From positions 1-64,000 of the forward strand of contig NZ_RQZG01000014.1 in assembly GCF_003859805.1 (NCBI RefSeq): 64,000 bases of DNA. The letters are read 5' to 3'. The position numbers and the translations under genes were made by a program. The notes beneath the pieces are model-generated. The model was not told the origin of the DNA and ran no database searches. It worked only from the letters and a program-made list of their open reading frames with translations. Below, in pieces: positions 20,053 to 38,286 of this stretch. This stretch comes from Arachnia propionica (GTDB taxonomy: Bacteria > Actinomycetota > Actinomycetes > Propionibacteriales > Propionibacteriaceae). Position 1 is the first letter of the stretch; each line of letters begins with the position of its first letter.

Positions 20053-23000
20053 ATGGCAGTGCTGACCCGTGGGCGGATCGAGACCGCCGCCGTCGCCGTC
20101 CTCACGACGGCTCTCGGAGTGCTGGCCTTCGCCCACCCCGGTCTGCCGGCCTCCGAGGTGGAGCTCAACGACGGTGGCATCTGGGTCACCAACCAGAACC
20201 TGCTCATGGTGGGGCATCTCAACTACGAGGCGCAGACCCTGGACGGCGGGTTCCAGTCCACCAAGGACAACTTCGACGTCTCCCAGGCGGCCAGCAACGT
20301 GCTGGTGACCAGTTCCGACAAGATCCAACCCGTCGACGTGGCGTCGGTGTCGATCCGCAGCGAGGCAGACACCAGCGGTCTCCAGGTCTCCCACAACGGT
20401 GATCTCGTGCTGTTCGCCGATCCCGGGGTCGGTCGCGTCTGGGCCACCGACAGCGGCGGGGCCGGGACCTTCTCGACCACCGCGCTGCCACTGCTCAAGG
20501 ACCTCAGCAGCCCCCGCGTGGTCGTCGGTGTGGACGGGGTCGGCCATGTCATCACCAAGGAGGGGGCGCACTACGCGATCACCCCCGGTGAGGAGGATCC
20601 GCAGGTCTCCGACCTCGGGGTGGCCTTCCCCGGGGGGATCAGCGATGACGCACAACTCAGCGTCATCGGCGACGTCCCGGTGGTCCTGGACCAGGGAGAG
20701 CTGCGTCACCGGGGCCGGACCATACGCAACGACGACTTCACCGACGCCGTGCTCCAGCAGCCCGGACCGGACACCGGTCGGATCGCGCTGTCCAGCCCCA
20801 CCGCCATGCTCCAGGTGGACACCGGCAACGGGCGGGTCACCATGGTCGAGGTGCCGAGCGGCGAACCGGCCGCTCCGGTGCAGCTGGAGGGCTGTGTCCA
20901 CGCCCTGTGGGCACGGACCGGTTACTACCTGCGCGACTGTGAGGGGGCGGACTTCGTCAAGTCCCAGTACGACGAGATCGAGAACGCCACCGATCCGGTG
21001 TTCCGGACCAACCGGAAGGTCGTCGTCATCAACGACACCGCCACCGGGGTGGTGCTGCTGCCGATGAAGGACATGGCCCGGGTCGACAACTGGGAACTCA
21101 TCAAGAACCAGCTTCAGGAGGAGAAGCAGGTCAAGGAGGAGGACGTCGTCGACGGGCGTGTCACCATCCGGGAGTTCACCAACGAGCAGAACCCACCGGA
21201 GGCCGTCGATGACCAGCTGGGGGCCCGCCCCGGCACCTCAACCACCCTCCCGGTGCTCCTCAACGACACCGACATCGACGGGGACGTGCTGACCGCCGTC
21301 ATCGAGACCCAGCCCGAGGGGGTGCAGCTCGCGCTGGCCGACGAGGGACGTCAGATCCGGGCGCAGGTCCCCTCCGACATGACGGGGGAGTTCACCTTCA
21401 CCTACCGGGCCTCCGACGGGAACAGCGTCTCCAACCCGGCCACGGTGACCGTGAAGATCCGGGCACCCGGAGAGAACTCGGCCCCTGAACGGGTCCGCAA
21501 CGCCCAGTTGACGGTCGCCGAACGTGCCTCCCTCGAGTACTCGGCACTGGGGGACTGGGTGGATCCCGACGGTGATCCGATCTTCCTCGCCAGCGCCGCG
21601 TCGGAGCAGGCCCTGGAGGTGTCGTGGCGTCCTGACGGGTACGTCGCTGTCAAGGACCTCGGGACCGGGGGTCCGGGCAAACGCGCGGTGAACCTGACGG
21701 TCAGCGACGGCACCGAGTCGGCCTCCAGCGTGCTCGACGTCTACGTGGTCCCCGGCGCCAGCAACTCCCCGCCGATCGCCAACAGTGACCACTTCGTGGC
21801 GACGGTGGGGGAGGCCGTCACCCTCGAGCCGCTCCTCAACGACACCGATGCCGATGCGGACAAGCTGTCGGTCGTCGAGGTGGAGCCCGCCCCGGCCGGC
21901 ACGGAGATCAAGACCGACTACCAGTCGGGACAGATCCGTTTCACCGCGTCCCAGGCCGGGTCCTACCTGTTCGTCTACGGCATCAGCGACGGGGGCAACA
22001 GTGCCAAGGGACGCATCCGGGTGGATGTGATCGACCCGGCGACCGACGACAAGATGCCACTGGCGGAGAACGACCTGGCGCTGCTGCCCGCAGGCGGCTC
22101 CGTGGTGCTGGACGCGCTCGCCAACGATCGTGACCCCACCGGTGGGGTGCTGGTGATCCAAGGGGTCTCGCTGGGTTCGTCGAAGGAACTCAACGTGGAG
22201 ATGATCGCCCACGCCCGGATGAGGATCAGCGCCCCCGCCGGTCTGCAGGAGGCCAAGACCTTCCAGTACACGATCAGCAACGGTCATGGCTCGGCCACCG
22301 CGAAGGTGCTCGTGGTGCCGCGGGAGAGCCAGGCCGAGTCCCAACCCCCCGTCGCCAAACCCGACCAGGCGGTGGTGCGGGCCCAGGACATCGTCACCGT
22401 GTCCGTGCTGGGCAACGACTACTCGCCCTCGGACCTCGACGTCAAGCTCCAGCCGGAGCTCGACGTGCGCTCCGACGCGGAACTCGGTGAGTTCTTCGTC
22501 TCGGACCAGCAGGTGAGGTTCCGCTCCACGGGCAAGGCCGGCACGGCCGAGGCCCTGTACACGATCCGGGACTCCGAGAACCGCATCGCCACGAGCAGCA
22601 TCACGATCACCATCAACGACTACGACGAGGCGAACCAGCAACCCGTTCCGGGTCCGGTGGTGGCCAGGACCTTCACCGGGAAGAGCATCCGGGTCCCGAT
22701 CCCGTTGGAGGGGGTCGATCCCGACGGGGACTTCGTCCAGCTGGTGGGGCTCGGACAACGTCCACCGCAGTTCGGTTCCGTCACGGTCAACGGGAACTCC
22801 CTGATCTACTCCGCCTCGTCGACGGTGGCGGGTACCGATACCTTCACCTACCGGGTCGCCGACCAGTTCGGGGCCGAGGGGGAGGGCACCATCCGCATCG
22901 GGGTGGCGCCTGCCCCCACCACGAACCAGGCCCCGGTGACGGTTCCCGACACCGTGTTCGCCCGCCCCGCCAGCGCGCTGGAGATCCCGGCCCTGGCCAA

Positions 23001-26000
23001 CGACCTCGACCCGGACGGTGACCAGGTCAAGCTGGTCAACGGCTCGGTCCGGGCCGCTGACGAGACCTGGGACCCGCAGGCGGAGGTCATCGGGCAGAAG
23101 ATCCGCATCACCACGCCCGAGGAGGCCGGACAGTACCGGCTGCTCTATGGCATCCAGGACGGTGGGGGCATCCAGGTCGAGGGTCTCGTCACCGTCAACG
23201 TGGATCCCAACGTGCCACCCGTCCCACCGGTGGCGCGCGACGACTTCGTCCCCGAGGCGGGGATCAACGACAAGGACAGCGTCGAGATCGAGGTGTTGAA
23301 CAACGACTCCGATCCCGACGGAGCGGTGTCCGACCTCAAGGTCTCGGTCGAGGAACCGGCGAGTGTCAGGGGCGGGGTGGTCCGGGTCCCGGTCACCGAT
23401 GAACGCCAGGTGCTGCTCTACACGGTCACCGACAAGGACGGGTTGACCGCGAAGGCCGCGGTGGTGGTCCCGGGCCGCCAGAAGGTGAGGCCGCAGATCA
23501 ACCAGGAGGTCGTGCCCGCCCGGGTCAAGGGTGGTGAACAGTTGGTGATCAACCTCGACGAGTACGTGGTCACCCGACCGGGGAACAGGGCGAGGCTCAC
23601 CCGGGCCGAATCCGTGACCGCGGGCCCCGGGGGGAACACCGAGCTTCCCAACGGCGGGCTCGAGGTGGTGGACGAGGACACCATCCGCTTCACCCCGGCC
23701 ACCACCTTCAGCGGCCCCACCTCGGTGTCCTTCGAGGTCACCGACGGGGAGACCCTGGAGGATCCCCGCGCGCTCAGGGCCACGTTGAGCGTGCCCGTGC
23801 TGGTGCTCTCCTCCGGACTGACGCCGCCGTCGTTGCGGCCGAGCGAGGTCACCGTCGCGCCCGGTGAGGGCCCGGTGTCGGCCAGCCTCGCGGCGATGGT
23901 CGATGATCCGGACCCGGGGGACAACGAGCGGATGAGCTTCAAGGTGCTCTCCGCCAGTGAGGGAATCTCGGCCAGCACCAGCGGCAAGGAGATCCAGGTC
24001 ACCGCCGATGCCACCCTCGCGGTCGGTGCGGAGGCGACGGTGCAGGTGGAGGTGCACGACGGCTCCACCGATCCACTCACCATGACGGTCCCGGTGCGGG
24101 TGCTGAAGACCACCCGGCCCCTGATGCAGGTCGCCGACATCGAGGAGCGCAACGCCCGTCTGGACCAGACCTATGCCTTCGACCTGAAGAACTACGTCAC
24201 CAACCCCTTCGCCGATGTCGGCGGGGAGATCAGCATCGTCGGGGTGGCGACGCTCCGACAGGGTTCGGCGAACGTGTCCCAGAACGGCACCGTCATCGAG
24301 GTGACCCCGACCGATCCGGGGACGGGCACCGAGGGGGTGGGGGACGTGGTGGTCTCCTACCGGGTGGCCGATGCCACCAAGGAGGCCTCCCGGGAGCGCA
24401 ACGGCACCATCACGTTGAGCGTCAAGGGCAAACCACGGCCACCCACCAATGTCACGGCGGAGGTGCTCAGGTCGAAGACGGCCCGGGTGACCTGGACCCA
24501 TGCCGGATGGCGTGGTGGGACCCCGCGTGGCTTCACGGTCATCTGGGACGACGGGGAGAAGTTCTGCGGGCTCCAGACCACCTGTGACATCGACACCCTG
24601 CGCAACGGCAAGGCCTACACCTTCACCGTGGTGGCGGAGGTCACGGAGCCGGACATCGACCGCAGTGCCCCGTCCTCACCCAGCAACCAGATCTGGGTGG
24701 ACGGCCTGCCCAACCGGCCGGGACGCCCGAGTGCCACCTTCGGGGACCGCTCGATCTCACTGGCCTGGGACCCGGTGGGCACGGCTGACGGCGGCTCCCC
24801 GGTCAACCGGTACACGATCTCGATCCAGCCGGCCGACGCCCTGGGACGGACCCGGATCGACACCACCGGCACCAGCCATGTGTGGGACAACCTCAACAAC
24901 GGCACCGCCTACACCTTCACGGTGACCGCGCACAACAGGCTGACCGACGAGGACCCGCGGGTGAACCCTCCCACCGGGGACGCCTCCGCCCCACAGATCC
25001 CGGCGGGGGCACCGAGCGGTCAGGGGCCGCCGACGGTGTCGCTCAACAGGCCGGTGACAGGGGTCACCCCGAGCGCGACGCTGACCTGGGGCCCACCCGC
25101 GAACCCCAACGGGGATGCGGACTTCCGCTACGAGGTCCGGGCCACCGGGGGTGACCTGGTGTGCAGCAACGTCTCGTCGAACCAGTGCACCATCAGCATG
25201 GACGTCAGCACCTCGGACCGGACCTTCGAGATGCGCGTGACCAACAAGTCGAGACTGTGGTCACCCTGGTCGTCGATCTCCAACAAGGTCAGGCCGCACC
25301 AGCCGCCGGGGCAGCCCGGAGGGTTCAGCCTCACCCCCACCCACAAGGGACGGGAGGCGACCTTCAACTTCTCCCCGGCCTCCCCGAACGGGGCCCGTGA
25401 CGACGAGATCTCCTACGAGTGGAACGTCGGTGACACCTGGGGGCGGGTCTCCCCGGGCGAGACCGTGACCAGCGACGCCTTCGTCTACGGGCGTTCGGTC
25501 ACCGTGAACCTCCGTGCCGTCGCCACGGTCAACGGGCAGCGGGTGGCGGGGGAGACCGTCAGCGCCACGGTCGCGGTCTCCGGACCGCCGGCGGTCCCGG
25601 TGGTCAGCGCCACCCAGCTCTCCGGGAACGAACCGAAGGTCCGGCTGGGCTGGGAGATGCCCGGCTCCAGCAACGGGGCCTCGGTCACCGCGATCGGCCT
25701 GGAGATCACCACCGGTGGTGCCAAGGAGAGCAACGAGGTCTCGGACCTGACCGACAGCACCGACAAGGGCACCGCCCACGACCAGCGGGTGTGCATCAGG
25801 GCCCGGGCCAAGAACGAGCACGGCGAGTGGAGCGACTGGTCGGGTGAGCAGTGCGCCGACACCATCCCGGAGCCCAGACCCGCCCCGACGGCCTCGATGA
25901 GGTCAGGGCCGAAGGTGCAGTGTCCGGATGACGACGATGACGACTGCCACCAGGCGGCTGTGGAGTTGCGCAACTGGAACCCGGACACGAGTGTGTCCTG

Positions 26001-26154
26001 TCAGCTCAACAACGTCGCGGGCATCACCAGTGAGGCCCGGATCGGGGTGGACGGTTCCGGGAACCGTGACCTGGTCATCAAGGAATGGGTGTTCCCCGAG
26101 GACCGCGAGCCGAAGAATCCCGTGGACATCACCGCCAGCTGCCGCCAGGCCTGA
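20053..26154 (+). CDS. Giant surface protein with tandem Ig/cadherin-like and fibronectin type III domains
   Basis: This 2033-residue protein starts with one hydrophobic segment (ETAAVAVLTTALGVLAFA) that is a signal peptide or anchor. Residues about 40-380 form a beta-rich, perhaps propeller-like region. From about 380 to 1440 there are roughly a dozen Ig/cadherin-like repeats with recurring NDTDxDGD or DPDGD calcium-type turns and FTYRxxDG motifs. From about 1450 onward there are Fn3 domains (RPPTNVTAEV, GRPSATFGDRSISLAWD, GQPGGFSLTP). The end is Cys-rich with an unusual Asp run (CPDDDDDDC). No LPXTG or C-terminal membrane helix is seen. ATG at 20053 is preferred; a GTG 48 nt upstream has a poorer site. 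It heads the operon and is probably the structure the downstream proteins build or sense. Confidence 0.88.
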   Translation: MAVLTRGRIETAAVAVLTTALGVLAFAHPGLPASEVELNDGGIWVTNQNLLMVGHLNYEAQTLDGGFQSTKDNFDVSQAASNVLVTSSDKIQPVDVASVSIRSEADTSGLQVSHNGDLVLFADPGVGRVWATDSGGAGTFSTTALPLLKDLSSPRVVVGVDGVGHVITKEGAHYAITPGEEDPQVSDLGVAFPGGISDDAQLSVIGDVPVVLDQGELRHRGRTIRNDDFTDAVLQQPGPDTGRIALSSPTAMLQVDTGNGRVTMVEVPSGEPAAPVQLEGCVHALWARTGYYLRDCEGADFVKSQYDEIENATDPVFRTNRKVVVINDTATGVVLLPMKDMARVDNWELIKNQLQEEKQVKEEDVVDGRVTIREFTNEQNPPEAVDDQLGARPGTSTTLPVLLNDTDIDGDVLTAVIETQPEGVQLALADEGRQIRAQVPSDMTGEFTFTYRASDGNSVSNPATVTVKIRAPGENSAPERVRNAQLTVAERASLEYSALGDWVDPDGDPIFLASAASEQALEVSWRPDGYVAVKDLGTGGPGKRAVNLTVSDGTESASSVLDVYVVPGASNSPPIANSDHFVATVGEAVTLEPLLNDTDADADKLSVVEVEPAPAGTEIKTDYQSGQIRFTASQAGSYLFVYGISDGGNSAKGRIRVDVIDPATDDKMPLAENDLALLPAGGSVVLDALANDRDPTGGVLVIQGVSLGSSKELNVEMIAHARMRISAPAGLQEAKTFQYTISNGHGSATAKVLVVPRESQAESQPPVAKPDQAVVRAQDIVTVSVLGNDYSPSDLDVKLQPELDVRSDAELGEFFVSDQQVRFRSTGKAGTAEALYTIRDSENRIATSSITITINDYDEANQQPVPGPVVARTFTGKSIRVPIPLEGVDPDGDFVQLVGLGQRPPQFGSVTVNGNSLIYSASSTVAGTDTFTYRVADQFGAEGEGTIRIGVAPAPTTNQAPVTVPDTVFARPASALEIPALANDLDPDGDQVKLVNGSVRAADETWDPQAEVIGQKIRITTPEEAGQYRLLYGIQDGGGIQVEGLVTVNVDPNVPPVPPVARDDFVPEAGINDKDSVEIEVLNNDSDPDGAVSDLKVSVEEPASVRGGVVRVPVTDERQVLLYTVTDKDGLTAKAAVVVPGRQKVRPQINQEVVPARVKGGEQLVINLDEYVVTRPGNRARLTRAESVTAGPGGNTELPNGGLEVVDEDTIRFTPATTFSGPTSVSFEVTDGETLEDPRALRATLSVPVLVLSSGLTPPSLRPSEVTVAPGEGPVSASLAAMVDDPDPGDNERMSFKVLSASEGISASTSGKEIQVTADATLAVGAEATVQVEVHDGSTDPLTMTVPVRVLKTTRPLMQVADIEERNARLDQTYAFDLKNYVTNPFADVGGEISIVGVATLRQGSANVSQNGTVIEVTPTDPGTGTEGVGDVVVSYRVADATKEASRERNGTITLSVKGKPRPPTNVTAEVLRSKTARVTWTHAGWRGGTPRGFTVIWDDGEKFCGLQTTCDIDTLRNGKAYTFTVVAEVTEPDIDRSAPSSPSNQIWVDGLPNRPGRPSATFGDRSISLAWDPVGTADGGSPVNRYTISIQPADALGRTRIDTTGTSHVWDNLNNGTAYTFTVTAHNRLTDEDPRVNPPTGDASAPQIPAGAPSGQGPPTVSLNRPVTGVTPSATLTWGPPANPNGDADFRYEVRATGGDLVCSNVSSNQCTISMDVSTSDRTFEMRVTNKSRLWSPWSSISNKVRPHQPPGQPGGFSLTPTHKGREATFNFSPASPNGARDDEISYEWNVGDTWGRVSPGETVTSDAFVYGRSVTVNLRAVATVNGQRVAGETVSATVAVSGPPAVPVVSATQLSGNEPKVRLGWEMPGSSNGASVTAIGLEITTGGAKESNEVSDLTDSTDKGTAHDQRVCIRARAKNEHGEWSDWSGEQCADTIPEPRPAPTASMRSGPKVQCPDDDDDDCHQAAVELRNWNPDTSVSCQLNNVAGITSEARIGVDGSGNRDLVIKEWVFPEDREPKNPVDITASCRQA

Positions 26155-26176
26155 CCCCGACAAGGAACCCACCACA

Positions 26177-27154
26177 ATGAATGCTGTACTCACCCCGGAG
26201 CAGGCGGCCTTCTTCGCCGACACCTTCGCCCGGCTGACCGACAACATCGGGCAGGCCCTGCTGGGCAAGGCTCCCGTCGTGAGGCTGGCGCTGACCTGCA
26301 TGCTCTCCGAGGGGCATCTGTTGCTGGAGGACGCACCCGGGACGGGCAAGACCGCTTTGGCCAGGGCCATCGCGGCCTCGGTCCACGGCAGCCACAACCG
26401 GATCCAGTTCACCCCGGACCTGCTGCCCTCCGACATCACGGGGGTCACGATGTACGACCAGGCGACGGGACGCTGGAACTTCCACCACGGCCCGATCTTC
26501 TCCTCCATCGTGCTGGCCGACGAGATCAACCGGGCCTCACCCAAGACGCAGTCCGCGCTGCTCGAGGTGATGGAGGAGTCGCAGGTCACCGTCGACGGGC
26601 AGCGCTATCCCACCGAGCGACCGTTCATGGTGATCGCCACCCAGAACCCGGTGGAGCAGGCCGGCACCTACCGGCTCCCGGAGGCCCAGCTCGACCGCTT
26701 CCTCATGAAGACCTCGGTGGGCTACCCGGACACCGAGGACTCGGTGGCGGTGCTGGCCGGTTCGGCCCGTCCCGACCGTTCGAAGCTGTTGAAGGCGGTC
26801 GTGGCACAGCAGGCCATCGCGGAGATGATCGACTCGGTGCGGGACAACTACGTCAACCCGTCGGTGCTCTACTACATCCAGCGGCTGGTGGAGAGCACCC
26901 GCGACGACGCCGACACCGCGATGGGGGTCTCCACCCGTGGGGCCATCGGCATGGTGCGGGCCGCCCGGGTGTGGGCGGCCGCCCATGGCCGCAACTACGT
27001 CATCCCCGATGACGTGAAGGAACTGGCCACCCCGGTGTGGACGCACCGTATCATCATGTCCCCGGAGGCCGAGTTCGCCGGGGTCACCGCGGAGGACGTG
27101 GTGGCCCGGGCCCTGAGCAGGGTCGAGGCCCCGACGAACCGGACGGTTTCCTGA
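26177..27154 (+). CDS. MoxR family AAA+ ATPase
   Basis: MoxR ATPases are hexameric chaperones, usually paired with a DUF58 or VWA protein, that mature or insert target complexes. The 325-residue product shows Walker A EDAPGTGKTALARAIA (about residue 52), Walker B and sensor motifs VLADEINRASPKTQSALLEVMEE and ATQNPVEQAGTY, and a lid domain at the C-terminus. It starts 22 nt after the giant surface protein, with AAGGAA ahead of ATG, and 3 nt before a DUF58 gene. The MoxR-DUF58-TgpA order is common in bacteria; its target here is presumably an envelope assembly. Confidence 0.95.
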   Translation: MNAVLTPEQAAFFADTFARLTDNIGQALLGKAPVVRLALTCMLSEGHLLLEDAPGTGKTALARAIAASVHGSHNRIQFTPDLLPSDITGVTMYDQATGRWNFHHGPIFSSIVLADEINRASPKTQSALLEVMEESQVTVDGQRYPTERPFMVIATQNPVEQAGTYRLPEAQLDRFLMKTSVGYPDTEDSVAVLAGSARPDRSKLLKAVVAQQAIAEMIDSVRDNYVNPSVLYYIQRLVESTRDDADTAMGVSTRGAIGMVRAARVWAAAHGRNYVIPDDVKELATPVWTHRIIMSPEAEFAGVTAEDVVARALSRVEAPTNRTVS

Positions 27155-27157: not shown

Positions 27158-28375
27158 GTGGCACGCCGAATCCGTGACGACTCCGCTCCGCCCATCCCGG
27201 GGCGGGGCCTGTGGGCACGTCTGGTGCGAAACCCGGTGACGGAGCCCATCACCCCGCTCGGCTGGTTCCTGCTGGGACTGGTCACCGTCGGGGCGATCCC
27301 TGCCTGGAGTCTCGGCTGGCTGGAGTTCCGAGCCCTGTGGGTCATCGCGGCGGTGGTGCTGATCCTCGCCGTGCTGAGCGTCATGGGGCGTTCCCAGCAC
27401 CTGGTCATCTTCGAGCTGGACCGTCCCCGGGTCCAGGCGGGGGAGACCGTGGGCGGGCGTGTGGTGGTGACCGCGGCGGGTGGACGTCGCTCCGTGCCCT
27501 CCACCCTGGAGTTCTCCGTCGACGACGACACCGCGTCCTTCCGGGTCCCGGAGCTGGCGGGCGGTACCCGTCACGAGGAACGGTTCAGCATCCCCACCAC
27601 CACGCGAGGGGTGGTGCGGCTGGGGCCGGTCCGCTCCGTCCAGGCCGATCCCCTGCTGACCCTCAGCCGCATCAAGATGCTCTCGGGAACCCAGGACCTG
27701 TTCGTCCATCCACGGATCATCGCGGCGGGGTCGGGGGCCATCGGCTTCCTGAGGGACGTCGAAGGGATCACCACCTCGAACCTGTCCTCGTCCGACGTCT
27801 CCTTCCACGCCCTGCGGGAGTACGTCCCCGGAGATGACCGTCGCTCCGTCCACTGGCGCACGACGGCCCGGGTCGGCAAGCTCATGGTCCGCCAGTTCGA
27901 GGAGACCCTCCGGGCGCACCTGCTCATCCTGCTGTCCACCCGCACCGCTGACTACACCGACCCGGACGACTTCGAGCTGGCGGTCTCCGTGGCCGGTTCG
28001 CTGGGCGCCTCGGCGCTGCAGGAGGAACGTCAGGTGACCTTCGTCACCTCCACCGAGGAGGTCCGTTTCCCCGGGGCCATCGGGTTGTTGGACCGACTCT
28101 CCGGGGTGGCCTGCCAGGAGGAGGCCCCGACGATGCGGCAGGTGGCCGCGCGTCACGCCAACGCACCCGGGCTGTCGGTGGTGGCCCTGGTCACCGGGAA
28201 TGCCGCCCGTGCCGAACTGCGTGGTGTGCAGCGGGTGATCCCGCCGGGGGTGTTCTCGTTCGCCCTGCGCTGCTCCGGGGAGAGTCGGCTGTCCCGCAGC
28301 CGGGTCGGACCGATGAGCGTGATCGATCTCGCGGAGCTGGAGCAACTCCGCCCCGCCCTGCGGAGTCTCCGGTGA
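27158..28375 (+). CDS. DUF58 domain membrane protein, MoxR partner
   Basis: The 405-residue protein has two transmembrane helices near its N-terminus (GWFLLGLVTVGAIPAW and LWVIAAVVLILAVLSVM), then a beta-rich part and the DUF58 signature ALREYVPGDDRRSVHWRTTAR at about residues 225-245. The part after it resembles a VWA-like fold (LLILLSTRTADYTDPDDFELA). DUF58 proteins act with MoxR ATPases encoded beside them. GTG start 3 nt after moxR; its stop overlaps the next start by 4 nt (GTGA). Role inferred from family and context. Confidence 0.93.
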   Translation: MARRIRDDSAPPIPGRGLWARLVRNPVTEPITPLGWFLLGLVTVGAIPAWSLGWLEFRALWVIAAVVLILAVLSVMGRSQHLVIFELDRPRVQAGETVGGRVVVTAAGGRRSVPSTLEFSVDDDTASFRVPELAGGTRHEERFSIPTTTRGVVRLGPVRSVQADPLLTLSRIKMLSGTQDLFVHPRIIAAGSGAIGFLRDVEGITTSNLSSSDVSFHALREYVPGDDRRSVHWRTTARVGKLMVRQFEETLRAHLLILLSTRTADYTDPDDFELAVSVAGSLGASALQEERQVTFVTSTEEVRFPGAIGLLDRLSGVACQEEAPTMRQVAARHANAPGLSVVALVTGNAARAELRGVQRVIPPGVFSFALRCSGESRLSRSRVGPMSVIDLAELEQLRPALRSLR

Positions 28376-30708: not shown

Positions 30709-31899
30709 GTGCCGACGCGGCGACAACTGGGTGATCGTGTGGTGATGATCCTCGACGGCCAACGTCGAGCCATCGCCCATGTGATCCAGTGGGCGCCGGC
30801 AGTACTGCTCATCGTCGCCGGGCTGGGCTTCAGCCTGCTCTCCGAAGGGGTCTTCGGCATCGTCGTCTCGGCCATCCTCGGCATGCTGGGGGTCGGCGGC
30901 CTGGTCTGGAGTGCTTGGTTGATGGTCACCCGGTCCGAGACCCTCGGCGCATCGACCCAGCGGTTCAACTACGTGCGGGAGAGCGACGCGGCACCGGCCG
31001 GTGCAGGACTGCTCGGCAAGATGGCGGTGGAGGGGGCACTGGAGGTGGCCACCTGTGGTCTGGCGGCGATCTCCTTCCTGGCGACGTATCGGGACGGGCA
31101 GCACTGGCTCGACCGGGTCTTCCACATCGTCGCCGTGCACCGGGAGGTGCTGCCGAGCGTCGCCACGGCGCCCGGCGTCCCCCAGGCCACACCTGGATCG
31201 GTGACCCCTCGGGCCAGGTGGAACCCGCCCCCGCCACCCGGCAGCCCGACATCGGGTGCCCAGCCCTTCCCGCCGTGTCCGCGTTCCGGTGTCCCGGCCG
31301 CGCAGCCTCCCAGTGCAGCGGTGCAGCAGGGCCCCCAGACCGAGGCCGTCTCGCAGAGCACCCCGGTGCGTCCCTTCGGTCAGGCGGCGTCGGCCCGGGG
31401 GGCGAACCCCTGGGCCGCCTCTCCCTCGGCCCCGGTGTTCCCGCCCCTCGGCTTCGCCTCCAGCCCGGCACCTGAACCGGAGGACGACCAGGCCCAGCAG
31501 GAGACCGTCATCATCCCCGGTGCCCGCCCGCACATGGAGGCGACGGTGATCGACACCAACCCGATGGTGCCGCGTCCCGACCCGGTGCTCGTGCTGGATG
31601 ACGGGCAACGCATCACGGTGGACGGGCCGCTGGTGCTGGGCCGCAACCCCGTCGCCCCACCCGCCCACACGGGTGCGCGACCCGTCAAGCTGATCGATGC
31701 GACGATGCGACTGTCCAAGACCCATCTGGTGGTGCTGGCCGGGCTCGACGGGGTGAGGGTGATCGACATCGGCGCCACGAACGGGGTGTTCTTGGAGAGC
31801 GACGGGGAACGCAGCCGTCTCGTCGTGCGTGAGCCGCACCGGCTCCTCCCGAATCAGCTCATCCACTTCGGGGGCCGGACCTTGAGGTTGGTCCAGTGA
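30709..31899 (+). CDS. RDD-like membrane protein with C-terminal FHA domain
   Basis: The 396-residue protein starts with a membrane domain (about 1-145) holding hydrophobic helices (AVLLIVAGLGFSLL, FGIVVSAILGMLGVGGLVW) that resembles RDD proteins, including GQHWLDRVF. A long Pro/Ala/Gln-rich linker (about 150-270) leads to an FHA domain (about 290-396) with the phosphothreonine-binding residues LGRNP, SKTH and IGATNGVF. FHA domains bind pThr peptides made by kinases such as the one encoded 1.7 kb downstream. GTG start with GGAGGA 8 nt ahead, 3 nt after the previous gene. The linker contains threonines that could be phosphorylated. Confidence 0.88.
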   Translation: MPTRRQLGDRVVMILDGQRRAIAHVIQWAPAVLLIVAGLGFSLLSEGVFGIVVSAILGMLGVGGLVWSAWLMVTRSETLGASTQRFNYVRESDAAPAGAGLLGKMAVEGALEVATCGLAAISFLATYRDGQHWLDRVFHIVAVHREVLPSVATAPGVPQATPGSVTPRARWNPPPPPGSPTSGAQPFPPCPRSGVPAAQPPSAAVQQGPQTEAVSQSTPVRPFGQAASARGANPWAASPSAPVFPPLGFASSPAPEPEDDQAQQETVIIPGARPHMEATVIDTNPMVPRPDPVLVLDDGQRITVDGPLVLGRNPVAPPAHTGARPVKLIDATMRLSKTHLVVLAGLDGVRVIDIGATNGVFLESDGERSRLVVREPHRLLPNQLIHFGGRTLRLVQ

Positions 31900-32672
31900 G
31901 GGCCCCCAGCATGGTCGTGCGCTGTGCCGCTGCCACCCACCAGGGTCTCGTCCGCTCCGTCAACGAGGACTCCTGGCTGACCCTGCCTCCGATCTTCCTC
32001 GTCGCGGACGGCATGGGAGGCCACGAGGCGGGGGAGTTGGCCTCGAGGAGCGTGGTCGACGTGTTCCGGGAGCTCGCCACCCACGAGTGGGTGGGCAGTG
32101 ACGACCTGATCACGACGATCAACCATGCGGCCGCCGAGGTCTCGCAGCTTCGATCCCACGGTCGGGCACCGGGATCGACGGTCAGCGGGGTGGCCCTGTC
32201 CAGACAGGGTGGGCAACCCTGTTGGCTGGTGTTCAACATCGGCGACTCCCGTACCCATCTGCTGCGTGACGGCGTGTTCACACAGGTCAGTGTCGACCAC
32301 TCCGCGGCGGCACAGTTCGTCGATGCGCCACGCAACATCATCACGCGGGCGCTGGGAGCCGGCATCGAACACCCCGAGGCCGACCAGTGGTTGATCCCGG
32401 CGCTGCCCGGGGACCTCATCGTGATCTGCTCGGACGGGCTGTCCAACGAGCTCAGCCCACAGGTGATCGCAGCCACCGCCGACCACACGGATGACCTCCA
32501 GGAAGCGGCGAATCGGCTGGTACAGTTCGCGCTCGACGCCGGTGGGCGGGACAATGTCACCGTGGTTCTTGTGCGTTGCGAGTTCACCGAGGCGGTCGAG
32601 GGTGTCACGATGGACGAGGACACCCTGCCGCCGCAGCTGGGCGACACCATCGAGGACTGGGAGGAACGATGA
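31896..32672 (+). CDS. PP2C family serine/threonine phosphatase
   Basis: This 258-residue cytosolic phosphatase has all metal-binding motifs of bacterial PP2C: VRSVNEDSW, LVADGMGGHEAGE, NIGDSRTHLLRDG, CSDGLSNEL and GGRDNVTVVLV. It should remove phosphate from the products of the adjacent kinase. No membrane helix is seen. GTG start overlaps the preceding stop by 4 nt (GTGA). The set PP2C, two FHA proteins and a kinase forms a complete write-read-erase module within the operon. Confidence 0.95.
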   Translation: MRAPSMVVRCAAATHQGLVRSVNEDSWLTLPPIFLVADGMGGHEAGELASRSVVDVFRELATHEWVGSDDLITTINHAAAEVSQLRSHGRAPGSTVSGVALSRQGGQPCWLVFNIGDSRTHLLRDGVFTQVSVDHSAAAQFVDAPRNIITRALGAGIEHPEADQWLIPALPGDLIVICSDGLSNELSPQVIAATADHTDDLQEAANRLVQFALDAGGRDNVTVVLVRCEFTEAVEGVTMDEDTLPPQLGDTIEDWEER

Positions 32673-33571
32673 TCTCGAGTCATGGCACACCCACCTGGTC
32701 GCCCGGTGCCCACATGGGGATCGTGTGGCCCCACGGGCTGGCCCTCGTGCTGAACGGTCTCACCCCGGAGGGCGCCGGTGAACTGTGGCACCGGGTCCAC
32801 GCCAGCGCGAAGCTGAGCGATTTCGTGCGCTCCCTGGCCGAGGTGGTCGGTACAGGCGTGCTCGAGCTGCCTGAATTCGCCGTGGCGATCAGCGAGGGGG
32901 ACAACTGGCATCTCGCGATCAGGGGACAGGTGCCGCTGGAGGCCCAGTTCGGCAGCACCTCGGAGGCGATGCAGTGCCACACGATCACCACCTGGACCGA
33001 GCGGACCGTGCTCTCCCCCAGCGCTCTCAGGATCGGTGAACCAGGAGGACCGATGGTGCCCGTGAGCGACGGCGTGGTGCTCGCAGGGTGTCTCGAGCTG
33101 GGCGCCTTCAAACCGTCGAGCACGGTGCTGGTCGAGGAGACCGGTGGCATCCCCCACGTGCCGGAGGACGAGCGCAGTGACGTGGACGTCGTCGTCTCCC
33201 CGCCCGCGACGGCTCCGACCCACGCCGAGGAACGCGCCCCCATCGGATGTCTCCGGATGCCCGGCGGCGAGCTGATCCCGCTGGGTGGTCCCGTCGTCAT
33301 CGGACGCCATCCCGGGGCGGGTGGTCTCAACCTCAGTGAACCGGCCAGGCTGGTCACCATCGGGGAGCCCCACATCTCGGCCAACCACCTGGCGTTGTTC
33401 GTCGAGGAGGGGCAGGCCTACGCCCGCGACCTCGGCAGCCGCAACGGCAGTGCACTTCGTCGTCGTGGTGGGGATCCGCTCCGGCTCCCGGAGCGTTCCA
33501 TCCCGCTGGAGGCCGGGGACGTGCTGGACCTGGGGCAGGGTGTGCTGATCCACTGCGACGGGTTGCCGTGA
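32669..33571 (+). CDS. FHA domain protein with unknown N-terminal domain
   Basis: The 300-residue protein has a C-terminal FHA domain (about 200-300) with VVIGRHPG, EPHISANHLALF and ARDLGSRNGSAL, which carry the conserved Arg, Ser-Asn-His and Asn-Gly of pThr recognition. The first 185 residues (ISSHGTPTWSPGAHMGIVWP...) form a domain I do not recognise, with no membrane helix, so unlike the other FHA protein it should be soluble. ATG overlaps the PP2C stop (ATGA), and its stop overlaps the kinase start. It probably reads a phosphorylated partner of the kinase. Confidence 0.9.
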   Translation: MISSHGTPTWSPGAHMGIVWPHGLALVLNGLTPEGAGELWHRVHASAKLSDFVRSLAEVVGTGVLELPEFAVAISEGDNWHLAIRGQVPLEAQFGSTSEAMQCHTITTWTERTVLSPSALRIGEPGGPMVPVSDGVVLAGCLELGAFKPSSTVLVEETGGIPHVPEDERSDVDVVVSPPATAPTHAEERAPIGCLRMPGGELIPLGGPVVIGRHPGAGGLNLSEPARLVTIGEPHISANHLALFVEEGQAYARDLGSRNGSALRRRGGDPLRLPERSIPLEAGDVLDLGQGVLIHCDGLP

Positions 33572-35133
33572 TGGGGCAGCGCACGCAACCCCCGGAGCTG
33601 CCGGGCTTCACCTACATCGGATGGATCGGTGGCGGTGGTTTCGCCGATGTCTTCCGGTACCGGGACTCGTTGGGCCGTGGTGTGGCGGTGAAGGTGCTTC
33701 ACCAGACGGTGGACGAGACGGCCTTCAACGCGTTCGCGGCCGAGGCCGTCCTCATGGCCCGGCTGTCGGGGCACCCCAACATCGTGACCATCCATTCCTC
33801 GGGGCTGTCCCCGGACGGTCGGCCCTTCCTCGTGATGGAGGAGTGCTCCTCCACGCACCTGGGGGCCAGGATCTCCAACCGGGTGCTGCCCCCCACCCAG
33901 GCGATCGAGTTCACGATCCAGCTGGCCGGTGCCGTCGAGACCGCCCATCTGCAGGGCATCCTCCACCGCGACATCAAACCCGCCAACATCCTGTTCACGG
34001 GGTTCCAGCGTCCGGCACTGACTGACTTCGGGATCTCGGCCTCACAGGACCAGCGGGCGCTGGCCAACGCCCTGAGCCCGTTGTGGGCCCCGATCGAGCA
34101 ACACCCGAACGCCGGGATGGAGCCCGGGCCGTGGAGCGACGTGTTCTCGCTGGCCGCCACCACCTGGGCGATGCTGGTGGGACGCAGTCCTCTGGCGGTG
34201 CCCGGGGCGGACAACAGCACCGCTGCGCTGAGGGAACGGGCCCGGAACTTTCACGCCCCGCGCACCGGCCGCAGCGATGTCCCCCAGACCCTGGAGAACG
34301 TGTTGGCAACGGCGATGGCGGGCAACCCGGCGCGCCGCTACTCCAGCGCGCAGGAGTTCGCGCGGGCCCTGCAGAGCGTCCAGACCCGGCACGGGCTGCC
34401 GATGACCCCGTTCGACGTCCTCGCCGAGTCGTTGGAGCAGGAGCCGCGACGACTGGATCAGGGCTTCGACCCGTCGTGGCCGAATGCGGACTCCAGCCAG
34501 ATGCTCACGGGGGGCTACACCTCCGGTCTGTCCTCCTATACCGGCGGCTACCTGTCCTACCAGGATCCCGCCAGCCTCGTCGACGACCCGACCCCGCCCT
34601 CGGTCTCGACCGGTGCCCCGGAGGCGGGCGTGCTCCTGCGCGGCTCGGGGTTCGCCGAGGCCGGGCCACGTGACGTCGGTACCCTGCCGGTGCCGGAACC
34701 CCAGCCGAGTCCACCGCCTGCCCCGGATCCTGATGCCAAGCGCGGCAAACGCACCCTGTTGATGGTGCTGGGAACACTGTTGCTGGTGGTCGGGGTGAGT
34801 GTCGGGGTGCTGTTCGCCAACGGCACCTTCGGTGGTGGGGCCACCCAGGTGCTGCCGACGGGGGAGGCCTCGCGGGTGCCCGGGGTGATCGACGTGGACT
34901 GGGCTGTCACGGGTGAGCAGGTGAAGTTCACCTGGACGAACCCGGACCCGCAGTCCGAGGACGTGTTCCTCGTCGAGATCATCGGTGCCCCTGCCAACGA
35001 GAACCGGGTCCGGGTCAGCAAGCCCGAGGTGATCGTGCCGGTCCAGGACGGTGAGACCTGCATCGACATCACCCTCAGGCGGCGAGCCCAGGGGCAGGTC
35101 TCGGATCCCGTGCGTGCCTGCGCCAAGAACTGA
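33568..35133 (+). CDS. Membrane Ser/Thr protein kinase with Fn3-like outer domain
   Basis: The 521-residue product has an N-terminal Hanks-type kinase: Gly loop GWIGGGGFADVF, VAVKVLH, HRDIKPANIL (D135) and TDFGISA. The activation segment is short and ends SPLWAPIEQ where PknB-type kinases have an SPEQ. A Pro-rich region (about 300-390) precedes one membrane helix (LLMVLGTLLLVVGVSVGVLF, about 394-415). The last 100 residues outside the cell look Fn3-like (VDWAVTGEQVKFTWTNPDP), not PASTA. Start is GTG 33568 overlapping the FHA stop, or ATG 33571. The outer domain might sense the operon's giant Fn3 protein. Confidence 0.93.
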   Translation: MMGQRTQPPELPGFTYIGWIGGGGFADVFRYRDSLGRGVAVKVLHQTVDETAFNAFAAEAVLMARLSGHPNIVTIHSSGLSPDGRPFLVMEECSSTHLGARISNRVLPPTQAIEFTIQLAGAVETAHLQGILHRDIKPANILFTGFQRPALTDFGISASQDQRALANALSPLWAPIEQHPNAGMEPGPWSDVFSLAATTWAMLVGRSPLAVPGADNSTAALRERARNFHAPRTGRSDVPQTLENVLATAMAGNPARRYSSAQEFARALQSVQTRHGLPMTPFDVLAESLEQEPRRLDQGFDPSWPNADSSQMLTGGYTSGLSSYTGGYLSYQDPASLVDDPTPPSVSTGAPEAGVLLRGSGFAEAGPRDVGTLPVPEPQPSPPPAPDPDAKRGKRTLLMVLGTLLLVVGVSVGVLFANGTFGGGATQVLPTGEASRVPGVIDVDWAVTGEQVKFTWTNPDPQSEDVFLVEIIGAPANENRVRVSKPEVIVPVQDGETCIDITLRRRAQGQVSDPVRACAKN

Positions 35134-35140
35134 ACCACCG

Positions 35141-35950
35141 ATGTCCCTGGTACCCGACCCGCAGCACCCGGGGGCCTTCCGTGTCCTGTTCGGGCAGGCC
35201 TCGCAGTCATGGGTGGACCCGAGCCGCCCCGACCTGCTGCTGTTCGAGTACGTCAACCACATCGCCCTGCTCTTCGAGCACGGACTGGCCGACACCGATC
35301 CGGGGACCCGACTCAGGGTCGTCCACGTCGGGGGAGCGGGGATGAGCATCCCCCGGTGGGTTGCGTGGCGACGCCCGGGGACGGCCCAGATCGTGTGCGA
35401 GCCGGATGCCGACCTCACCGCGGAGGTCCGTCGGAAGCTCCCGTTGCCGCCGCGCAGCGGGATCAAGGTGCGCGACCAGGACGGGCGCAGTGCGACCGTC
35501 CTGATGCCTGCGGACTACGCCGACCTGGTCGTGGTGGACGCGTTCGCCGGGGACCGGGTCCCGGGGGAACTGGTGAGCACGGGTTTCCTCGATGAGCTGG
35601 TGCGGATCGGGCGTGGTCGCAGGATGGTGGTGTTCAACGTCACGGATCTGTCTCCCTTCACCTGGACCAGACGTGTGGTTGCGGGCATGGTGGGGCGGTG
35701 GCGGCACCTGCTCGTCGGGGCCGAGCCCGCGGTGCTCAAGGGGCGAAGGTTCGGGAATCTGCTGCTGGCGGCGAGCGCGCACCGGCTGGACCTGGCCGCT
35801 CTGGTCCGAGACACCCGGAAGCAGCCCTGTCCCTACCGGTGGTTGACGGATCGGGAACTGGCCGGCTGGGTGGGTGGGGCGGTGCCGTTCACCGACGAGG
35901 ACACCGCCGACTCGCCGCCGCCCTCGGGCAGCAAACTGTGGTTCGCATGA
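35141..35950 (+). CDS. Spermidine-synthase-like (Rossmann methyltransferase fold) protein
   Basis: The 269-residue protein matches the fold of spermidine synthases and related SAM-type enzymes: LRVVHVGGAGMSIPRW (nucleotide loop), QIVCEPDADL (acidic end of beta2), DYADLVVVDAFAGDRVPGEL and the long segment MVVFNVTDLSP. The catalytic Asp-Asp pattern of true polyamine synthases is not clear, and no N-terminal substrate domain of full length is present, so the reaction is unknown. ATG at 35141 is 7 nt after the kinase stop. Similar short proteins occur widely in actinobacteria. It may modify an operon product. Confidence 0.78.
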   Translation: MSLVPDPQHPGAFRVLFGQASQSWVDPSRPDLLLFEYVNHIALLFEHGLADTDPGTRLRVVHVGGAGMSIPRWVAWRRPGTAQIVCEPDADLTAEVRRKLPLPPRSGIKVRDQDGRSATVLMPADYADLVVVDAFAGDRVPGELVSTGFLDELVRIGRGRRMVVFNVTDLSPFTWTRRVVAGMVGRWRHLLVGAEPAVLKGRRFGNLLLAASAHRLDLAALVRDTRKQPCPYRWLTDRELAGWVGGAVPFTDEDTADSPPPSGSKLWFA

Positions 35951-36594
35951 TGGGAGAATTGGCAGCTGTGACCAGACGATCGCGTTTCCCCGTCACCCTC
36001 GTGGTGGGTGTCCTGCTCCTGGCCGCGGTGCTGGCCGGGGGCGGGGTCGTGGCCTGGCAGGTCTGGGGAACGGCCGCTCTGGGGAGGGAGCACGCCGCCC
36101 GGGAGGTCGCGGCGTTGCGGGAGCGCTGGGCGGCAGGGCAGACGGTTCCGGTGCAGGGTGAGGCCGCGTGGATCATGCGCATCCCGGCGCTGGAGGACCG
36201 GGTGGAGTGGCCCGTCCGGGCCGGGGTGGCCGATGAGCAGCTGACCGATGGGCTCGGCTGGTATCCCGGGAGCGCCAGACCGGGGGAGATCGGCAATTTC
36301 GCCGTCGCAGGGCGCTGGCTGACCTCGGGGGAGCCGCTGCGGGGATGGTTCGAGCTCCCGCCGGGAACCACGGTCCAGGTGGAGACCGCCACCGAGATCG
36401 TCACCTACGAGCTGATCTCGGCCCCCGGCGGTCTGACCGTGGGTCGTGATGAGCAGTGGGTGCTGGACCCGGTGCCCGGACGCGACGAGGTGCCGTCCCA
36501 GGCCCTGCTGACGGTGACCACGCATGAGGATCTCCTCCCCGGCCCCGATGTCTCGGTGGCCTTCGGGAGGCTCACTGACAAGGAGCTGAAATGA
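35947..36594 (+). CDS. Sortase-like membrane protein lacking catalytic His, Cys and Arg
   Basis: The 215-residue protein has one N-terminal membrane anchor (FPVTLVVGVLLLAAVLAGGGVV) and a class E/D-like sortase fold: WIMRIPALEDRVEWPV, GLGWYPGSARPGEIGNFAVAG, and ALLTVTTHEDL. In active sortases the last two motifs read AGHR and TLTTC; here they read AGRW (R123 for His) and TVTTH (H193 for Cys), and the later Arg is not evident. It is therefore probably not a transpeptidase. ATG at 35947 overlaps the preceding stop (ATGA); GTG at 35968 is an alternative. It may bind the giant surface protein as a scaffold. Confidence 0.82.
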   Translation: MMGELAAVTRRSRFPVTLVVGVLLLAAVLAGGGVVAWQVWGTAALGREHAAREVAALRERWAAGQTVPVQGEAAWIMRIPALEDRVEWPVRAGVADEQLTDGLGWYPGSARPGEIGNFAVAGRWLTSGEPLRGWFELPPGTTVQVETATEIVTYELISAPGGLTVGRDEQWVLDPVPGRDEVPSQALLTVTTHEDLLPGPDVSVAFGRLTDKELK

Positions 36595-37130
36595 ATGATC
36601 GGCAGAGTCTCGTCCAGGCCGTGAAGGACCTGGCGGTGGTGCGTGGGCGTGTGACGCTCGCCTCCGGCAAGGAGGCCGACCACTACGTCGACATGCGGCG
36701 GGTGACCCTCGACGGGGCGGCGGCGCCGGTGCTGGGTCGGGTCATGAACGAGCTGGTCGCGGACCTCGACTTCGACGCCGTGGGTGGCCTGACCCTGGGG
36801 GCGGACCCGGTGGCGACCGCGATGCTCCACGCCCGGGCCGCGGCTGGAGGTCGGCTCGATGCGTTCGTGGTGCGCAAAGAGTCCAAGGCCCATGGGATGC
36901 AGCGGCTGATCGAAGGCACCGAGGTCGCCGGTCGCCGGGTGCTGGTGGTGGAGGACACCTCCACCACCGGTGGTTCCGCCCTGACCGCCGTCCGCGCGGT
37001 GCAGGAGGCAGGAGCTGAGGTCGTCGCCGTCGCGGTGGTGGTCGATCGTGCGACGGGGGCTGCCGAGAAGGTGGCGGAGGCCGGCCTGGAGTACCGGTAC
37101 GCCCTCGGCCTGGCCGATCTCGGCCTGTGA
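36591..37130 (+). CDS. pyrE: Orotate phosphoribosyltransferase
   Basis: PyrE converts orotate and PRPP to OMP in pyrimidine synthesis. The 179-residue product has the family start LVQAVKDLAVVRGRVTLASG, the loop FVVRKESKAHGMQRLIEG and the PRPP-binding motif RVLVVEDTSTTGGSAL. ATG overlaps the sortase-like stop by 4 nt, and its stop overlaps the next start, so a nucleotide gene is tightly locked into the tail of the surface operon. No other pyr genes are in the window. Confidence 0.93.
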   Translation: MNDRQSLVQAVKDLAVVRGRVTLASGKEADHYVDMRRVTLDGAAAPVLGRVMNELVADLDFDAVGGLTLGADPVATAMLHARAAAGGRLDAFVVRKESKAHGMQRLIEGTEVAGRRVLVVEDTSTTGGSALTAVRAVQEAGAEVVAVAVVVDRATGAAEKVAEAGLEYRYALGLADLGL

Positions 37131-37756
37131 CCGAGGACCCGACCGCGCCGGTCGTCGGGGTCGGCCCGCACCCGGAACCCTGGCCGGGTGACCCCCGTCT
37201 CGATCCGGAGCTGCTGGCACACGGGGATCGCCGCAATGTCATCGACCGCTACCGCTACTGGCGGCTCGAGGCGATCGTGGCGGACCTGGACCGGTCCCGG
37301 TCCGGGCTGCACGTGGCGATCCAGAACTGGGAGCACGACTTCAACATCGGCTCGATCGTGCGCACCGCCAACGCCTTCAACGTCGGTGGCGTCCACATCG
37401 TGGGGAGGCGACGGTGGAACCGTCGCGGGGCGATGGTCACCGACCGGTACCTCCACGTCCACCACCATGCCGACGAGCAGGGACTGAAGGCCTGGCTGGA
37501 GGAGCGGGGCATCGCCCTGGTGGGGGTGGACAACCTGCCGGGGTCGGTTCCGTTGGAGACCGCACGGTTGCCCGGGCACTGCTGTCTGGTGTTCGGTTCG
37601 GAGGGGCCCGGTCTGACCGAGGAGATGGTGGCGAACTGCAGCACGCTGGTGGCCATCACCCAGCGCGGCTCGACCCGTTCCCTCAACGCGGGCGCGGCCG
37701 CTGCCATCGCGATGTACCACTGGAGCCTGCAGCACCCTCTACCATTCGTGTCATGA
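37127..37756 (+). CDS. SpoU/TrmH family RNA 2'-O-methyltransferase
   Basis: The 209-residue SPOUT enzyme has the three knot motifs: IQNWEHDFNIGSIVRTANAF, CLVFGSEGPGLTEEM and ITQRGSTRSLNAGAAAAIA. It transfers methyl from SAM to a ribose 2'-OH in rRNA or tRNA; the target cannot be told. A short N-terminal part (HGDRRNVIDRYRYWRLEA) precedes the knot. GTG start overlaps the pyrE stop (GTGA). TACCAT inside its last codons may serve as promoter for the next gene. Confidence 0.92.
   Translation: MTEDPTAPVVGVGPHPEPWPGDPRLDPELLAHGDRRNVIDRYRYWRLEAIVADLDRSRSGLHVAIQNWEHDFNIGSIVRTANAFNVGGVHIVGRRRWNRRGAMVTDRYLHVHHHADEQGLKAWLEERGIALVGVDNLPGSVPLETARLPGHCCLVFGSEGPGLTEEMVANCSTLVAITQRGSTRSLNAGAAAAIAMYHWSLQHPLPFVS
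37740..37745 (+). promoter_or_regulatory. -10 element TACCAT within the SpoU gene end
   Basis: TACCAT lies 7 nt before the ATG of the small membrane protein, the same spacing as other apparent leaderless starts in this window. It would give that gene expression independent of the operon. Confidence 0.4.
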
Positions 37757-38286
37757 GCCCCGAGCGATTCGCCGTCGAACTGACCCCCTTGCCCACCGCG
37801 AGTCGGGTGGCGCAGCAACGGGGACGGTTGCGCTACCAGATCATCATCGCCGTGGTGTCGGCGGTGGTGCTGCTGGTGCTGTGGTGGGTGGTCAGGCCGG
37901 AACCCTGGCTGCTGTCCGGGGCGGCGCTGCTGTGGGGACTGAGCACGGCCTTCTGGATCGGGCTCAGCATGTTCTGGCTGAAGCAGGCGAAACGGGATCT
38001 CGCCTCGATCGGTCAGGGGGTGGCGCTCTACATCGACTCGGAGGGGCTGGAGTTCGTGCAGCCCGTCAGCGCCAAGGCCTCCTGGGCGGAGATCTCGGCA
38101 CTCAAGGTCAGCGGTAGCGGGTTCGGATCGGGGCCGAAGCTCGTGATGGAGGTGGCCGGAGGTCCTGTGGCCTCGGTGCCGATCAGCTTCCTCGACGCGA
38201 TGCCGGCGGCCATCGACTCGGCCGTGGGTGCCCGTTCCCTGGGCAGGGTGCGGCTGGACGTCTCCGACATGGACAAGATGTTCTAG
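37753..38286 (+). CDS. Small membrane protein of unknown function
   Basis: The 177-residue protein has two membrane helices (IIIAVVSAVVLLVLWWVV and LLSGAALLWGLSTAFWIGLSMFWL, residues 29-78), then a cytosolic beta-rich domain (VALYIDSEGLEFVQPVSAKASWAEISALKV...) that resembles PH-like or YcxB/DUF304-type folds. It starts with ATG overlapping the SpoU stop (ATGA) and closes the operon; the next gene, fba, lies 87 nt on with its own promoter and Shine-Dalgarno. No function can be assigned. Confidence 0.75.
   Translation: MSPERFAVELTPLPTASRVAQQRGRLRYQIIIAVVSAVVLLVLWWVVRPEPWLLSGAALLWGLSTAFWIGLSMFWLKQAKRDLASIGQGVALYIDSEGLEFVQPVSAKASWAEISALKVSGSGFGSGPKLVMEVAGGPVASVPISFLDAMPAAIDSAVGARSLGRVRLDVSDMDKMF

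Follow-up and report, generated by a model that had tools for sequence, protein, structure and literature searches.

A conserved PFNA-type module in Arachnia propionica and other actinobacteria: a rod protein, MoxR-DUF58 and a predicted pseudo-TgpA, and a kinase with a putative Fn3-like ectodomain

The described system closest to the genes considered here is the PFNA operon of Bifidobacterium, pkb2-fn3-aaa-atp-duf58-tgm-prpC-hyp-fha (PMC8430577; this and all other cited papers are drawn on here in excerpt). In B. longum GT15 all eight PFNA genes are transcribed together, and the operon's MoxR protein is a substrate of Pkb2 (PMC8430577). The B. longum FN3 protein has 1,994 amino acids (aa), with Fn3 at 1494-1671 (PMC10688814), and a fragment of it binds TNF-alpha (PMC8430577, PMC10688814). 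In the excerpts concerned, the tgm product is called a transglutaminase, presumably a cysteine protease (PMC8430577, PMC6803598), the cluster or its FN3 protein is stated to be unique to, or found only in, bifidobacteria (PMC8430577, PMC10688814), and a mycobacterial moxR operon is likened to PFNA (PMC12067865); further papers deal with the operon in Bifidobacterium (PMC6803598, PMC12607495). The subject of this report is a run of genes on the + strand of a 64,000-nucleotide (nt) stretch of Arachnia propionica DNA (assembly GCF_003859805.1, contig NZ_RQZG01000014.1, positions 1 to 64,000; hereafter the window). As an earlier note made from the sequence alone had read it, the run comprises thirteen genes at 20053-38286, joined by 4-nt overlaps or spacings of at most 22 nt (gene starts re-read); its gene list and coordinates are correct, and its domain calls were verified with Pfam and NCBIfam. 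Genes 1-8 are one conserved module, and genes 9-13 are a separate housekeeping pyrE/spoU/fba block that has become joined to it in this lineage.

The earlier note knew of no described system with this content, a view that does not hold, as eight of the components are homologous to those of the PFNA operon (PMC8430577). Homologues of the kinase, fn3, MoxR, DUF58 and tgm genes all stand in one same-strand run of eight genes, and PP2C and FHA genes are also common to both. The product of the window's fn3 gene, here called the rod, has 2033 aa, a transmembrane segment and Fn3 domains, and is thus comparable to the B. longum FN3 protein of 1,994 aa. Unlike in PFNA, where pkb2 comes first, the kinase gene of the window is the last of the eight; an RDD-FHA gene lies between tgpA and pp2c, the module is joined to the pyrE block, and the host is not a bifidobacterium. 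Because the printed fixed gene order is not kept, we refer to the window's genes as a PFNA-type module, kinase-last variant, and not as the PFNA operon proper.

Parts of the module also resemble other known systems. MoxR-DUF58-TgpA triads (MoxR Proper subfamily) have the same three-gene order and conserved MoxR motifs, but the window's TgpA-like protein is Cys-less. In the MoxR-vWA ternary systems, as far as the excerpts of PMC7159879 describe them, MoxR likewise has a vWA-type partner, and the window's MoxR matches PF20030 (bpMoxR) with 41.8 bits against a cut-off of 27; the propeller of those systems is fused to the vWA protein, whereas the rod of the window is separate and predicted to be extracytoplasmic. 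In the window's DUF58 protein a search at E up to 1 finds no propeller. The nearest NCBIfam model for the kinase domain is NF033483, that of the PASTA-type PknB/Stk1 kinases (154 bits, below the cut-off of 450), but the ectodomain of the window's kinase is predicted to be a single Fn3-like domain, with no PASTA match at E up to 0.001.

The recurrence of genes 1-8 in relatives is more than chance. A scan with the DUF58 protein as query gave 80 named loci, of which the 63 with at least 9 kb on both sides of the DUF58 gene were counted and 17 dropped. On the same strand, all 63 hold a tgpA-like gene, 62 a kinase gene, 61 fn3, 61 moxR, 59 FHA, 59 RDD-FHA and 58 pp2c, and the order of genes 1-8 is kept in relatives; the nearest named relative found, A. 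propionica OH2822 (L004), is 97% identical in MoxR and 74% in DUF58. A second set of 40 loci, mostly one per genus and with 20 kb taken from each, was picked by the rod. A kinase gene lies within the 20 kb in 35 of these and in 38 once regions were extended (L186-L188), with two rods standing alone (L126, L142). On our reading of the 38 loci, the kinase gene precedes fn3 in 22, follows it in 15 and lies on the other strand in one; its position varies yet it stays linked, so that the linkage survives reordering. None of 20 control loci, all from one family, has a kinase gene beside the pyrE block, and the source genome, 3.4 Mb in size, has seven kinase matches in all. The proposal in the earlier note that the Fn3 protein, MoxR-DUF58-TgpA and kinase/PP2C/FHA genes form one unit is supported for genes 1-8 as a conserved unit.

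The PFNA-type module is widespread in actinobacteria and not, as printed, confined to bifidobacteria. Searched with a profile built on the N-terminal domain of the rod (A2), the class gave matches in 25 of 246 genomes at a cut-off of E 1e-20, and one actinobacterial order gave them in 195 of 327 genomes, in 56 of 102 genera, at a cut-off of E 1e-5. With another profile (A1), which also takes in one Ig domain, an E cut-off of 0.001 is passed by 30 of 57 genomes in the family to which the window belongs, and 28 of the 30 lie below 1e-30. Only the best few candidates per genome were scored, so that the rod counts may be lower bounds, and near-threshold matches may include false ones. The module occurs in organisms named after soil, root, leaf and ice (Arthrobacter sp. 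Soil763, Nocardioides sp. Root190, Arthrobacter sp. Leaf69 and A. cryoconiti), the habitats being taken from the names only. Family f50 of our sample was taken as Bifidobacteriaceae because a 16S probe for the genus matches 12 of 20 f50 genomes, none of four others and none of the 394 genomes of a class sample in which f50 is not listed. These 20 f50 genomes are among the matches listed for the rod N-terminal profile and, having been drawn from rod matches, say nothing on how many genomes of the family are rod-less. The PFNA order, kin-fn3-moxR-duf58-tgpA-pp2c, is found in five of the six f50 loci read (L116-118, L120, L121). The sixth, L119, is peculiar in another respect: on the - strand of genome G571 (L119:11313-17876), rod and MoxR are joined in a single open frame of 2,187 aa, a strange arrangement for two proteins expected on opposite sides of the membrane, and the kinase there lacks the Fn3-like ectodomain.

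The rod gene (fn3, 20053-26154, +) matches Big_9 in 11 stretches and fn3 in three. In a simple hydropathy scan of the protein, a stretch at about residues 9-27 is the only hydrophobic segment, which points to an N-terminal transmembrane anchor; this is followed by an N-terminal domain (residues 41-375, about 335 aa; 20173-21177, +), an Ig/cadherin-like stalk, Fn3 domains and a variable tip. The fifth Fn3 segment of our own segmentation, Fn3-5, covers about residues 1840-1945 (25570-25887, +). For the N-terminal domain, the window protein gives no match in Pfam, and none to PDB sequences below E 0.6; the domain is possibly a beta-propeller, because 3 of 30 relatives have weak NHL matches and the domain has a weak internal repeat with an offset of about 43 residues (27% probability). 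Rod length is nearly constant: among 127 rods, counted from 1,700 aa upward (1,900 aa for named loci), the median is 2,041 aa and the 5-95% range 1,962-2,152 aa. Despite this, the majority of named rods share just some 30% of their residues with the window's rod in the N-terminal part. Compared with the window's rod, 65 full-length orthologues have median identities of 29% for the N-terminal domain, 38% and 34% for the two halves of the stalk, 22% for Fn3-5 and 19% for the tip, where the tip is everything after the last match to the Fn3-5 model and in some rods includes further domains.

Tandem rod genes show where these proteins change most. Eleven pairs from 11 genomes were chosen by eye from match lists and do not represent all tandem copies; a twelfth (L194), made up of antisense open reading frames, was set aside. 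In all 11, the two copies differ most, among six regions compared, in Fn3-5 plus tip, with 21-51% identity, whereas stalk half A stands at 55-94%. One genome (G032:C35, L165-L167) carries five tandem rod genes of 2,056-2,161 aa, separated by 40-87 nt and differing at their ends. Among four of the copies, identity is 56-93% along the stalk and 31-45% in the end region, and the fifth is more distant throughout; the array lies on the - strand, in our reading with one pp2c-fha-kinase set before the five rods and one moxR-duf58-tgpA set after them. Stalks that are alike and tips that differ in tandem copies fit a constant rod with exchangeable binding ends. By blastp the tips fall into 22 clusters, two of which hold 44 and 41 proteins. 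No Pfam family at or above its cut-off was found in eight tips scanned, and an SH3-like reading of the tips was not supported, with a single match at E 0.19.

Downstream of the rod gene by 22 nt, moxR (26177-27154, +; AAA_3/MoxR AAA+ ATPase) encodes a protein with intact Walker A and B motifs. In 130 of 130 MoxR proteins, all longer than 280 aa, GTGKT of Walker A and DE of the second motif are invariant. The duf58 gene (27158-28375, +) follows after 3 nt and encodes a vWA-like membrane protein with a DUF58 match at 1.2e-11. The DUF58 core is strongly conserved among relatives; a DxSxS metal site is not kept.

Overlapping duf58 by 4 nt, the tgpA-like gene (28372-30705, +) encodes a polytopic protein with TgpA_N and Transglut_core matches above cut-off, which the earlier note had cast as part of a maturase. 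That role is not supported, as the catalytic Cys is missing. Alignment to Pseudomonas aeruginosa TgpA (6g49), in which the pairing of residues was confirmed, sets D483 of the window protein (codon 29818-29820, +) opposite the catalytic Cys. No Cys stands at or near the catalytic place of the transglutaminase-like domain in any of 129 proteins (counting open reading frames longer than 500 aa and, of the named loci, those with at least 100 bits); the place is taken by D in 97, E in 14, S in 9, A in 4, G in 3 and H in one, with a gap in one. The catalytic His is kept in 88 of the 129, the Asp in 82 and both in 68, and in six f50 loci the three catalytic places are occupied by Ser, by Thr or Ala, and by Tyr. 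A canonical MoxR-DUF58-TgpA triad elsewhere in the source genome (L199, G000:C68 near 96.8-101.4 kb) keeps Cys and His. Judged by these residues, the TgpA-like protein of the module is a predicted pseudoenzyme, non-catalytic throughout the set.

The signalling genes follow at once. They encode an RDD-FHA membrane protein (30709-31899, +; gap of 3 nt), a PP2C protein phosphatase with intact metal-site motifs (31896-32672, +; overlap of 4 nt), an FHA protein matched by Pfam FHA (32669-33571, +; overlap of 4 nt) and a membrane Ser/Thr kinase with a Pkinase match and intact active-site motifs (33568-35133, +; overlap of 4 nt). The RDD part of the first of these has no Pfam match in the window protein and one in four of five relatives, in one case below cut-off. 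The HRD and DFG aspartates are invariant in 110 of 110 kinases, open reading frames of 350 aa or less being left out, and the PP2C metal-site residues are nearly invariant (n=93).

The part of the kinase after its transmembrane segment, the ectodomain (34858-35130, +), follows one common pattern in 66 sequences, from the window and 65 loci, and in an alignment of 39 rows (A4) one Trp, one Asp and two Cys are invariant. Compared by hhalign with the parts of the rod, the ectodomain matches Fn3-5 at 93.2% (E 2.8e-7, 79 columns), whereas Fn3 segments 1-4 give 2.2-16.2%, three Ig domains 0.3-0.9% and the tip 0.2%; the rod's Fn3 segments compared with each other, as a positive control, give 96.7-99.3%. 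A search against single rods agrees, the best ectodomain match being to residues 1840-1923 of L030 at 3.9e-6. Matches to Fn3 domains at large are weak: Pfam fn3 is matched by six of 39 members, at best at 1.3e-3, and the best of the PDB Fn3-domain chains, an interleukin-13 receptor, reaches 0.0079. These profile comparisons indicate that the kinase ectodomain is probably Fn3-like and related specifically to the rod's tip-proximal Fn3-5. It stands at the C-terminal end of the kinase in 33 of the 35 kinase loci of the 40-locus set, the exceptions being L141, which is cut by the end of the region, and L119, which lacks it; the other five f50 kinases read (L116-118, L120, L121) carry it at E about 1e-26. 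It has a single match in the whole source genome (G000). Among 40 genomes of the window's family it is found in 12 of the 20 with a rod, and the eight rod genomes without a match are among nine of a kinase-less variant described below.

From these features we propose, with about an even chance of being right, that the module builds an envelope rod with exchangeable tips, which would be handled by MoxR, DUF58 and the pseudo-TgpA and controlled by a loop of kinase, PP2C and FHA proteins that keeps watch on the rod or its ligand, and which would not by origin be a sensor of host cytokines. MoxR, the membrane-bound DUF58 protein and the non-catalytic TgpA-like protein could act together as a chaperone station at which the rod is assembled, extruded or fixed in place in the envelope. 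The stalk would set the reach of the rod and the C-terminal tip would make the variable contact. The kinase ectodomain might then sense either the rod itself, free or unassembled, or a ligand or partner bound by Fn3-5, whereupon the kinase would adjust MoxR and the FHA proteins by phosphorylation, to be reversed by PP2C. The phospho-controlled surface assembly suggested in the earlier note is a reasonable description of such a putative system. A bolder version, which we think unlikely as a whole, would make the module a widespread actinobacterial organelle for contact sensing, in which rods of near-fixed length with exchangeable tips are loaded by MoxR/DUF58/pseudo-transglutaminase and the cell compares rod contacts with membrane signals through a kinase bearing a membrane-proximal relative of Fn3-5, in recognition of self, kin or surfaces; cytokine binding by bifidobacteria would then be a late use.

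The matter is of some consequence because current work on the PFNA operon treats it as a cytokine receptor of bifidobacteria and a lead for drugs. Should the module instead be an ancient envelope system common to actinobacteria in general, host immunity would not be its basic function, its "transglutaminase" would be a pseudoenzyme and its kinase would read something shared with the rod. The link from kinase to MoxR as substrate is already in print. For the distribution, the Cys-less TgpA-like protein, the kinship of ectodomain and Fn3-5 and the exchange of tips, no description was found in the literature searched, nor was any paper joining PFNA, operon and Arthrobacter; subscription papers, including the first description of 2018, lie outside this search.

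Several observations weigh against a rod watched by its own kinase. The window's own ectodomain has no Pfam match, ectodomain and Fn3-5 pairs from the same locus are not significantly more alike than shuffled pairs (p 0.07), and the ectodomain also occurs in two of 20 family genomes without a detected rod. The earlier note had held that regular separation of Fn3 protein and kinase in related genomes would refute the link between them. The two stand together in the large majority of the 63 and of the 40 loci counted above, but nine Propionibacteriaceae loci (L156-L164) have fn3-moxR-duf58-tgpA-tmFHA without an adjacent kinase gene, and in seven of them an FHA gene precedes the rod; when eight of the nine were extended, a kinase gene appeared in just two (L181, L183), and no closer than some 18-20 kb. 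On account of these nine loci, a kinase in every cluster was rejected. In two Sinomonas loci (L027, L029) the kinase and the MoxR set are both present, and the place expected for the rod is taken by different open frames. The Arthrobacter loci L018 and L045 are short fn3-duf58-tgpA-kinase clusters without moxR, pp2c and both FHA genes, and L021 is without kinase, pp2c and fha. As a separate observation, the metagenome-assembled genome that carries the short cluster L018 also holds a full cluster (L081).

Of the other explanations, the published one would make the module a host-immune sensor, whose rod binds cytokines via WSxWS-type Fn3 motifs and whose kinase reads host signals. The TNF-alpha binding reported for the B. 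longum FN3 fragment (PMC8430577, PMC10688814) speaks for it, as do two WSxWS motifs in the window rod, but such motifs are present in only 16 of 127 rods, the rod domain occurs in 195 of the 327 genomes of one order, and the same module is found in organisms named for soil, root, leaf and ice. As the original job of the module we consider this improbable; cytokine binding could be a later use of the rod. In another reading the module would be a contact-dependent toxin-like system, in which rods would deliver exchangeable C-terminal tips, and the constant stalk and changed tip in tandem copies, together with 22 tip clusters, would suit it. Against this, the anchor is N-terminal, eight tips are without a Pfam family at cut-off, and the gaps between tandem rods, at 22-250 nt in 10 of 11 pairs (1,036 nt in G680) and 40-87 nt in the five-gene array, mostly leave no room for an immunity gene after each tip, so that delivery of toxins is very unlikely. 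Less probable still, we think, is a cytosolic conflict system of the MoxR-vWA ternary type known from excerpts of PMC7159879, since the propeller there is fused to the vWA protein, and the possible propeller here would lie behind a transmembrane segment on a separate rod, even though MoxR exceeds the PF20030 cut-off and kinases and FHA domains occur in such systems (PMC7159879).

It is just as hard to believe that the rod is matured by the TgpA-like protein acting as a cross-linker or protease. Its Transglut_core and TgpA_N matches are above cut-off, and the PFNA papers name the tgm product a transglutaminase, presumably a cysteine protease (PMC8430577, PMC6803598), but with the Cys missing in 129 of 129, the His kept in 88, the Asp in 82, both in 68, and the pairing confirmed against 6g49, the residues argue for a pseudoenzyme. 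There is finally the thought that two unrelated sets of genes merely share an operon. This is true of genes 9-13, and the kinase-less and rod-less clusters would accord with it for the rest, yet linkage of rod and kinase despite reordering in 38 of 40 loci and the probable relation of the ectodomain to Fn3-5 make it improbable for genes 1-8. The preferred reading remains that of an envelope rod under the possible control of the kinase loop.

Genes 9-13 are a spermidine-synthase-like gene (35141-35950, +; gap of 7 nt; MFS_SpdSyn 2e-12), a sortase-like gene of degenerate class-E type (35947-36594, +; Sortase, 43 bits in Pfam), pyrE (36591-37130, +; PyrE), spoU for a SpoU-type RNA methyltransferase (37127-37756, +; SpoU) and a gene for a membrane protein (37753-38286, +), the last four each with a 4-nt overlap; fba comes next, with its start at 38374. 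The spermidine-synthase-like gene, the sortase-like gene and pyrE stand beside the module in only two of the 63 loci (L004, L005), both among the nearest relatives. Elsewhere the block goes its own way: the sortase-like gene is present in 47 of 57 family genomes and is accompanied by pyrE, spoU or fba in 18 of 20 loci taken, the sortase-like/pyrE block is also found where no rod was found (G018, G022, G026, G033), and in a genome of the same genus (G036) rod and sortase-like gene are about 122 kb apart. For these reasons genes 9-13 are regarded as an independent block, and the single thirteen-gene system envisaged in the earlier note was rejected, the two neighbourhoods being usually apart.

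The sortase-like protein reaches 112 bits against a cut-off of 160 for the NCBIfam class E model, and the window's copy is without catalytic His and Cys, with AGRW and TTHED at the sites. Both residues are kept in 11 of 20 family loci (L096-L115) and the others lack one or both; they are lost in L004 too. The pattern points to repeated decay of the sortase-like gene beside pyrE.

A consensus scan of the region found no promoter-like site and two terminator-like sites, against 4.7 expected in shuffles; one of them lies inside duf58 (28238-28251, +), and the scan is given little weight. No RNA element upstream of fn3 was matched by Rfam at E up to 0.1 within 15000-40000. A short inverted repeat lies directly upstream of the rod gene, at 19985-20003.

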